This document shows positions 22,042 to 59,407 of a stretch of DNA of 62,738 bases, one piece after another. The first letter of the stretch is position 1. Each line of letters starts with the position of its first letter. The translations under genes were made by a program, and so were the position numbers. The notes under the pieces are model-generated. The model saw only the letters and a program-made list of their open reading frames with translations. It searched no databases and was not told the DNA's origin. Location: assembly GCA_944327225.1 (NCBI GenBank), contig CALVGZ010000010.1, positions 1 through 62,738 on the forward strand. Direction: 5' to 3'. The DNA is from Candidatus Gastranaerophilales bacterium. Its GTDB lineage: Bacteria; Cyanobacteriota; Vampirovibrionia; Gastranaerophilales; Gastranaerophilaceae.

Positions 22042-23619
22042 ATGAAAACCCTCAAAGCCTTTTCACTTATTGAACTCACAATCAGCCTAATAACAATCAG
22101 CTGTATCATGGCAGCCTTTGCTCCGATAATCACAAAAAAATTAAAAATATCTTCTTCATCTTCTTCTCCAATATCAACAGTAAAACCTGAATGTTCAAAA
22201 TTCTCTGAGGATTGTAAACTATGTGATTCAAATTCCTGTTTAATATGTAATAAGAACTGTAATGAAAATGAATATAAAAATATATCCTCTTGTGAATGTG
22301 AACCCTGTACAAACAGAGGTGAAAAATGTTTAACCTGTAATGCAAACAAATGTACAAAATGTGATACCGGATACGGTATTACAAAAGAAGGAGGTTGTGA
22401 AATATGTAACAAAGGATACTATTCAGATAAAACCTGTAAACCATGTCCTACAGGACAATATCAAAATCAAGAAGCAAAAACCTCTTGCATAAATTGTCCT
22501 GCAGGTAAATATCAGGATGAAGAAGGACAAAGTCTTTGTAAAAATTCTCCTTCGGGAAGTTATGTTAATTCACAAGGTGCAACTAACTATACTCCATGTC
22601 CTACAGGACAATATCAAAATCAAGAAGCAAAAACCTCTTGCATAAATTGTCCTGCAGGTAAATATCAGGATGAAGAAGGACAAACCTTATGTAAAACATG
22701 TCCTGCCGGTAAATGGTCAGAAGAAAAAGCAACCTCTTGTACAAATTGTCTTGCAGGTTATAAGTGTGACGGTTCAGGTACAATTACAATATGTCAAAGA
22801 GGATACTATGCCCCCTTGGGTTCAAGTACCTGTTCCTTATGTCCCATTGGAACAACTTCATCAAAAGGTTCAGCTTCTTGTTCTTCATGTCCTGTTGGAA
22901 CAACTTCATCAGCAGGTGCAGCCTCCTGTACCTCTTGTTCAACACTATTTGAAAACTGCACTCAATGCTCCCCTACAGAATGCACTGCATGCGCTGATAA
23001 CTATGAATTAAATAACGGAAAATGCGAGTTATCTGGCTGTCCGGCTAATACTATTGAAGTTGACACAGGAATTTCAAAACTCTGTGTCACCCAATACAAC
23101 ATGGGTGATAAAACCGAATTCCCCGTTAACGTTTCAGGTGTTAAAGTAGTTTCAACAGGAACCAACTGTTCCGCTAACGCCTGCTGCTGGCAGGGTAAAA
23201 CTGGAGATCCATGCGATTCAAATAACGGAGATTACAGTGGATGTAATAGAACTGTATGTACTTATTATGCTGCTAAAATCATTTGTAATAATTTAAATTA
23301 TGGAGGAAGAAGCTGGAGACTTCCAACTAGAGATGAAATACCTTTATTTTTTCCTTCCACATATTCAATAAACATAGGTACCTCAGGTCTTATGTTGTGT
23401 GACGACGAGCCCGGTTACGGTTCCGCTCAATGCAGCGGTCACAATGTCTGTAGCGGTTCCTACACTGGTAAGTGTTACGCGCGCGAGGTGTGGAGTAGTA
23501 CTACACTTATTGATGATAGCTCTCGCGCTTGGGGTTGGTTCCTGAGTGATGGCGAATGGGCCGGGAATAAAATGAGTAAAAGGCAAGCTTATTCTGTCCG
23601 TTGTGTCAGTGAGTTATAA
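22042..23619 (+). CDS. Prepilin-type, Cys-rich repeat surface protein with C-lectin-like variable-type tail
   Basis: The start is the ATG at 22042 (AAGGA upstream), giving 525 residues. Residues 1-35 are a type IV prepilin leader and hydrophobic helix (KAF, then SLIEL with Glu at +5), a substrate for prepilin peptidase. Residues 50-340 are Cys-rich repeats of the growth-factor-receptor/GCC2-GCC3 type (CPTGQYQ, CPAGKYQ, CPIGTTS). The last 180 residues match the DUF1566/Fib_succ_major-like C-lectin fold: GGRSWRLPTRDE, VWSSTT, and a terminal YSVRCVS. The 3' part is abruptly GC-rich (see separate entry). An adhesin or pseudopilin is likely. The XRE gene is divergent, and a terminator follows 25 nt after the stop. 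Confidence 0.85.
   Translation: MKTLKAFSLIELTISLITISCIMAAFAPIITKKLKISSSSSSPISTVKPECSKFSEDCKLCDSNSCLICNKNCNENEYKNISSCECEPCTNRGEKCLTCNANKCTKCDTGYGITKEGGCEICNKGYYSDKTCKPCPTGQYQNQEAKTSCINCPAGKYQDEEGQSLCKNSPSGSYVNSQGATNYTPCPTGQYQNQEAKTSCINCPAGKYQDEEGQTLCKTCPAGKWSEEKATSCTNCLAGYKCDGSGTITICQRGYYAPLGSSTCSLCPIGTTSSKGSASCSSCPVGTTSSAGAASCTSCSTLFENCTQCSPTECTACADNYELNNGKCELSGCPANTIEVDTGISKLCVTQYNMGDKTEFPVNVSGVKVVSTGTNCSANACCWQGKTGDPCDSNNGDYSGCNRTVCTYYAAKIICNNLNYGGRSWRLPTRDEIPLFFPSTYSINIGTSGLMLCDDEPGYGSAQCSGHNVCSGSYTGKCYAREVWSSTTLIDDSSRAWGWFLSDGEWAGNKMSKRQAYSVRCVSEL
22441..22531 (+). repeat. 91-bp perfect internal repeat, copy 1
   Basis: The 91 bp here are identical to 22594-22684, an offset of 153 bp (51 codons). 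The repeat encodes CPTGQYQNQE and CPAGKYQDEEGQ in the Cys-rich region. DNA-level identity in the third positions indicates recent duplication or gene conversion. Confidence 0.95.
22594..22684 (+). repeat. 91-bp perfect internal repeat, copy 2
   Basis: This is the second copy of the 22441-22531 segment. The two could recombine to delete or add one 51-residue module in frame. Confidence 0.95.
23401..23616 (+). other. GC-rich candidate variable region of the pilin-like gene
   Basis: Counting by eye, 23401-23580 has 95 G+C of 180 (53%), against 37 of 120 (31%) for 23221-23340 in the same gene. Many codons end in C or T with varied first two bases (GAC, TAC, AGC, CAC, TCC, GGT), which is what adenine-targeted mutagenesis of AAC/AAT template codons yields. 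It encodes the ligand-facing end of a C-lectin-like domain, the usual place for a DGR variable region. No template repeat or reverse transcriptase is visible in the window. Confidence 0.45.
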
Positions 23620-23644: not shown

Positions 23645-23670
23645 AAAGGGATTTCATATCCCTTTTTTTT
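23645..23670 (+). terminator. Terminator of the pilin-like gene
   Basis: AAAGGGAT and ATCCCTTT pair around a 5-nt loop and run into T8. It sits 25 nt after the stop codon. Confidence 0.9.
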
Positions 23671-58414: not shown

Positions 58415-59407
58415 TTCAAAAAATTTAAAATTATTACTTTAACTTGCGATGAAAAAAATAAACAAACAACCGAAGCAAAAATCAAAGCAGGACCAAAAGG
58501 CATAATATAAAACTGCGATTTTTCAATACCATCATTTTCATTGAAAACGTTTTGTTTTTTTTCAGTAATTTCATAAACAATATTCTTTAATGCCCAAAGC
58601 AAAATAATACAAACAATCAAAGCAAAAAACAAATACAAATTATCGTCAAATAAATTCAGATAATTTACAAAAAATACACTCAACAATCCTATAAGCACAA
58701 TTAAATAAGAAACAGCAACACAATATTTTTTGTTATTAATTTCTCTTAAAGCAATAATCGGGATAGAAAAAAAACATTGCAGAATGAAACTCAAAACAAT
58801 TATTAATAACAATATTTTAAAACCAAAAATAGCCCCCAAAGCAACAGCAATCAAGCTATCGCCTTCACCGAACATTCTAAATCCAATTATTTTTCTTGTA
58901 AATAGTGCCAATATCTCAAAAAATAAAAAACCGAATATTGCACTCAAAACAGAATCAAAAATAGATACGCCGGATAATTTTAAAACCGAAAATAAAATTC
59001 CAACAAATGCCAAAATATATGCATGAATATCAATTATAACAGTTTCTTTAAAATCAGTGCCTGCAAGCAATATAAAAAATGACAAAATTATCCAGACAAA
59101 AAGCGTTTTTAATGTTAAACCAAAAGAAATATAACCGGCTAAATAACAAAAACCGCAAATAAGTTCAACCAAAGGATACTGAATTGATATATATTCTTTG
59201 CAAAAAGCACATTTACCCCTTAAAAAAATATAAGAAAAAACAGGAATATTCATATACCAAGCAAGCTGGTTTTTACATCTTGGACATTTTGAACGTGAAT
59301 GAATAAAATCTTCACCTGCCAAACTCCTTAAAATAACAACATTCAAAAAGCTACCGATGCAAAGACCCAATATAAAAACATATACTGAAACAATCCAAAC
59401 CGGAACA

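Follow-up and report, generated by a model that had tools for sequence, protein, structure and literature searches.

A G+C-rich 3' end in a pilin-like gene of Candidatus Gastranaerophilales points to a remote target of a diversity-generating retroelement

The gene at 22042-23619 of the window (the whole stretch of DNA analysed, 62,738 nucleotides, contig C10 of genome G000) is very probably a dispersed, or "remote", target of a Gastranaerophilales-type diversity-generating retroelement (DGR). It is a recent or former target, and its driver has either been lost or lies in an assembly gap.

The window gene and its composition jump

The features are as follows.

22042-23619, + strand: target-type gene, 525 aa (ORF, Pfam)
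22042-22128, + strand: prepilin-like leader, MKTLKAFSLIELTISLITISCIMAAFAPI (motif found by eye; Pfam N_methyl below cut-off)
22414-22950 (approximate), + strand: Cys-rich stalk of Ephrin_rec_like repeats (Pfam, 1.8e-22; seven stretches per protein)
23188-23607, + strand: Lcl_C domain, PF07603, DUF1566-type (Pfam)
23401-23592, + strand: variable region (VR), G+C-rich, with A-poor third bases, homologous to template-matching VRs of relatives
23593-23610, + strand: conserved 3' end of the VR, TCTGTCCGTTGTGTCAGT, at the IMH position and with a putative IMH role; single copy genome-wide
23645-23665, + strand: terminator-like hairpin with an 8-bp stem, then a T run, past the stop codon
58765-59094, - strand: prepilin peptidase, PF01478, the sole one found genome-wide

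The protein runs from a prepilin-like leader through the Cys-rich stalk to the C-terminal Lcl_C domain, and ends in YSVRCVSEL. Of the prepilin leader and stalk proposed in the first-pass annotation, the stalk is recovered by Pfam. N_methyl stays below threshold (13.1 bits, cut-off 21.2), so the leader call depends on the motif AFSLIEL only. The peptidase at 58765-59094 could process this leader, and the protein may be displayed at the surface and have a binding role there. Lcl_C covers residues 383-522 with 40.8 bits (cut-off 34.9), in agreement with the DUF1566-like end described earlier. The C-lectin (CLec) part of that description is unconfirmed: the AlphaFold model has a pLDDT of 54 and no PDB matches, and the fold is a putative one, assigned from Pfam and the literature. 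The gene has the layout of a DGR target, a CLec/DUF1566-type domain with a VR at its 3' end, the VR being recognised by homology.

Within this one gene G+C rises from 37/120 (30.8%) in 23221-23340 to 95/180 (52.8%) in 23401-23580, exactly as first reported. No other 180-bp segment of the window is as rich in G+C as 23386-23565, at 55% (window mean 30.8%, SD 5.6%). Further, A is the third base in 179 of the 453 codons upstream (40%) and in 6 of the 66 codons from 23401 (9%; Fisher p=3e-7), while GC3 goes from 96/453 (21%) to 33/66 (50%; p=2e-6). C and T together make up 71% of the third bases in the G+C-rich segment, and the reported dominance of NNC/NNT codons is therefore correct.

Such a patch is what DGR writing might leave behind. 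An error-prone reverse transcriptase (RT), working with Avd, would copy a template repeat (TR) rich in AAC/AAT codons and randomise its adenines on the way. The cDNA would then replace the end of the Lcl_C domain, so that an otherwise AT-rich gene acquires a G+C-rich patch of NNC/NNT codons. With its leader and stalk, the protein would act as an adhesin that presents the altered lectin-like tip on the exterior of the cell.

Retroelements and variable regions in related genomes

The comparison drew on 28 gut MAGs of the genus (Candidatus Gastranaerophilales), one genome per species. Seven of the 28 carry a DGR-type RT with an adjoining Avd. These RTs form one family, with 55-94% identity to the RT of genome G007, and the two RT/Avd pairs that were scanned match the PHROGs "Reverse transcriptase" and "Avd protein of DGR". 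Family-wide, the RT is present in 25 of 191 sampled genomes. A phage origin of the RT was considered and rejected, as IMG/VR returned just three distant relatives (25-32% identity); relatives of the window domain were not found in IMG/VR either.

The number of Lcl_C matches per genus genome ranges from 0 to 96, the highest value being that of G022, a genome of 1.8 Mb. In G007 (L020/L108) the gene order is target, avd, RT and TR, and the sequence read from the TR resembles that of the VR but is rich in N. In the relatives RT, Avd and TR adjoin some homologous Lcl_C genes and are far from others. An Avd match in another relative (G021:C57 6441-6830) has two in-frame stops; an intact RT adjoins it, and an open frame of 122 aa spans most of it.

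RT, Avd and a TR with adenine-specific TR/VR mismatches occur together in G007, G009 and G018. Here VRs were compared with the TR of the same genome, and copies were kept if their non-A mismatch was below 15%. The mismatch is 205/574 at TR adenines against 74/1493 elsewhere in G007 (10 VRs), 221/556 against 98/1517 in G009 (10 VRs), and 69/173 against 41/463 in G018 (3 VRs). This corresponds to 36-40% at template adenines and 5-9% elsewhere, where the second rate is depressed by construction through the selection for low non-A mismatch, while the first is unselected. Two tandem template-like repeats follow the RT in G009 (L109 2483-2268 and 2049-1831); one of these accounts for all 10 matching VRs of the genome, and with the other none passes the cut. 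G022 was omitted, because its TR look-alike (L111 2531-2322), which we rejected, is N-poor and has 58% G+C.

Differences between VR copies favour codon positions 1 and 2 (0.30/0.25/0.11 for positions 1/2/3 in G007 and 0.29/0.26/0.14 in G009). In the flanking domain the order is reversed, with position 3 highest (0.12/0.11/0.33 and 0.12/0.11/0.30, respectively).

The template-matching VRs of the relatives are mostly internal, in tandem Lcl_C arrays. With the cut set at 17%, the 13 internal VRs, after which coding continues in frame, show mismatches at 290/755 adenines and 133/2011 other sites; for the 8 terminal VRs the values are 173/460 and 104/1229. If internal and tandem VRs are indeed rewritten, the homing signals must function within coding sequence. 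A conserved hairpin after the VR was tried as such a signal and discarded, since it is missing at most internal VRs.

The composition jump marks the TR-matching copies in these relatives. Using a threshold of our choice, 17% non-A mismatch, we divided the copies into two classes. In TR-matching copies the VR-minus-domain difference in GC is +0.05 to +0.18, A3 is 0.02-0.08 and GC3 is 0.47-0.59; in other copies the ranges are -0.13 to +0.07, 0.13-0.42 and 0.13-0.43. The window VR has +0.14, 0.09 and 0.49, its A3 being slightly beyond the TR-matching range. A classifier based on these three values (21 matching and 20 other copies from the three TR genomes; 40/41 correct in leave-one-out) assigns the window VR to the TR-matching class, but not the three intact-domain paralogues from its own genome.

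The closest relative of the window gene, at up to 69% identity, is found in G010, a genome with 27 copies, most of them with the signature, and no RT. At the A sites of a foreign TR the variability among 15 G010 VRs is high (entropy 1.15 against 0.36 elsewhere, p=3e-16), and across four foreign TRs the entropy is 1.09-1.17 at A sites and 0.36-0.41 at others. The window VR and the C-terminal VRs of G010 share CGTTGTGTCAGTGAGTTATAA at the 3' end. With a relative's TR in place of an own one, the window VR departs from the G010 consensus at 26/58 template-A sites and 40/152 others (p=0.009), which is suggestive only, because that many non-A sites also differ, as expected between species. With all four TRs 44-47% of A sites and 25-27% of others differ (p 0.002-0.017).

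The window VR belongs by composition to the TR-matching class, with a codon signature like that of the TR-matching copies, and its site pattern is suggestive of the same class. We infer that a DGR wrote it, and recently.

The missing driver in the window's own genome

The assembly of G000 comprises 1.73 Mb in 29 contigs and is 99.8% complete. It had been proposed that the RT and the template repeat lie elsewhere in this genome. This expectation did not hold for the assembly: it contains no DGR-type RT (RVT_1, genus DGR RT query and RT profile), and no template repeat, as the VR DNA and the 3' motif TCNGTNCGTTGTGTCAG are each single-copy, in the window gene. For Avd there is just one match, dismissed since it is weak (25% identity, E=0.006) and sits inside an 874-aa frame. 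The broader proposal, that the gene is a target or a former one, is supported by the relatives.

G000 has four Lcl_C matches, and a 31-residue end piece of a fifth lies where contig C27 ends. Among these copies only the window gene has the signature, which is evidence against a DGR origin. The paralogues L002, L003 and L004 (contigs C11, C17 and C26) share 91% of the flanking domain and 59% of the VR. Their VR differences fall at all codon positions and include in-frame indels, and in 60-bp blocks the VRs are merely 35-53% identical despite near-identical flanks. A single template written with adenine-limited changes would not give this picture. As guesses, the copies may have diverged long ago while gene conversion acted on their flanks, or VR cassettes may have been exchanged.

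Two sister proteins have the same type of prepilin-like leader and Cys-rich stalk. In L317 (209-2365, G000:C2) a Gly-rich C-terminal part replaces Lcl_C, and in L318 the frame is truncated by the end of contig C24. A G+C-rich direct repeat with about 105-bp spacing lies at the end of the window's contig (62565-62738) and also at the start of C24.

We weigh loss of the driver and an assembly gap about equally. There is roughly an even chance that RT, Avd and TR disappeared from the lineage, leaving a VR frozen from past diversification while the other copies in the genome drifted towards AT. The near-complete genome without these parts agrees with such a loss, and G019 exemplifies a lineage without a driver: it has 22 Lcl_C matches, no RT, and the TR-matching signature in 0 of 18 tested copies. 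Further, in G007 and G018 the DGR adjoins an aldolase gene (eda-like), in the interval between it and thrS (threonyl-tRNA synthetase), and in G000 these two genes, all named by eye, are adjacent with no DGR between them. One empty site is weak evidence, however, because the position of the DGR varies between species (in G002 and G022 it lies elsewhere). The composition of the window VR has barely drifted, which also speaks against a loss.

That the gene is an active target, with RT, Avd and TR hidden in a gap, is quite possible, if at less than even odds. Such a gap would arise because TR and VR are mutual repeats. Contigs of G009 and G018 terminate within a VR, and four contig ends of G000 fall in family genes, that of C27 within a VR. 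An assembly gap is the likely explanation for two RT-less genomes rich in copies, G010 and G027, because there the contig stops 130-150 bp past the aldolase gene, where G007 and G018 have TR and RT. On the other hand, the smallest G000 contig is 7.1 kb, and none of the 58 contig ends carries a fragment of TR, RT or Avd. It is also possible that a ready-made VR was imported by recombination from a DGR-bearing strain. A patch with no relation to DGRs, whether it came in by horizontal transfer or reflects codon choice under selection on the protein sequence, is improbable: the patch by itself and the genome without a TR would be compatible with it, but it coincides with the VR defined in the relatives and has the third-base pattern and, suggestively, the site pattern of TR-matching copies.

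Relation to known systems

DUF1566 is a frequent DGR target; pilin-linked forms are mentioned, and several VRs per ORF are known (PMC6642488). As in the BPP-1-type DUF1566/CLec DGRs of that work, relatives of the window have an RT, Avd, a TR and adenine-specific VRs at the ends of lectin-like domains. They differ in that one TR serves many dispersed genes with mostly internal matching VRs, and the window genome differs in being without RT, Avd and TR. Cyanobacterial DGRs have remote targets (PMC7517822), and the dispersed CLec paralogues and VR/TR homology described there resemble ours; however, those VRs lie near 3' ends only, in proteins mostly predicted to be cytosolic, whereas the Gastranaerophilales proteins are prepilin-like, stalked and often tandem. 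In the DGRs of Thiohalocapsa PB-PSB1 (PMC10907252), CLec domains with VRs occur in tandem and there are remote targets. Multiple VRs per protein and targets distant from the RT are common to both, but the PB-PSB1 targets are conflict-system (vWA/VMAP) proteins and those of Gastranaerophilales are pilin-like adhesins.

We found no literature that pairs "diversity-generating retroelement" with "Melainabacteria"; our coverage was incomplete, and this is weak evidence of novelty. Tentatively, a single TR may rewrite a genome-wide pilin-like repertoire throughout the genus, including tandem lectin-type domains, with enzyme-less genomes keeping the variants in a cycle of mutating and freezing.

A base-composition jump alone can reveal an orphan VR where the assembly is without RT and TR. 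A survey found C-terminal VRs to be the rule and attributed this to intergenic homing signals (PMC8144416); of the template-matching copies analysed in this genus, more have an internal VR, the placement considered disfavoured, than a terminal one. The findings extend DGR-driven diversification of the surface to the Gastranaerophilales/Melainabacteria, a gut lineage about which little is known.
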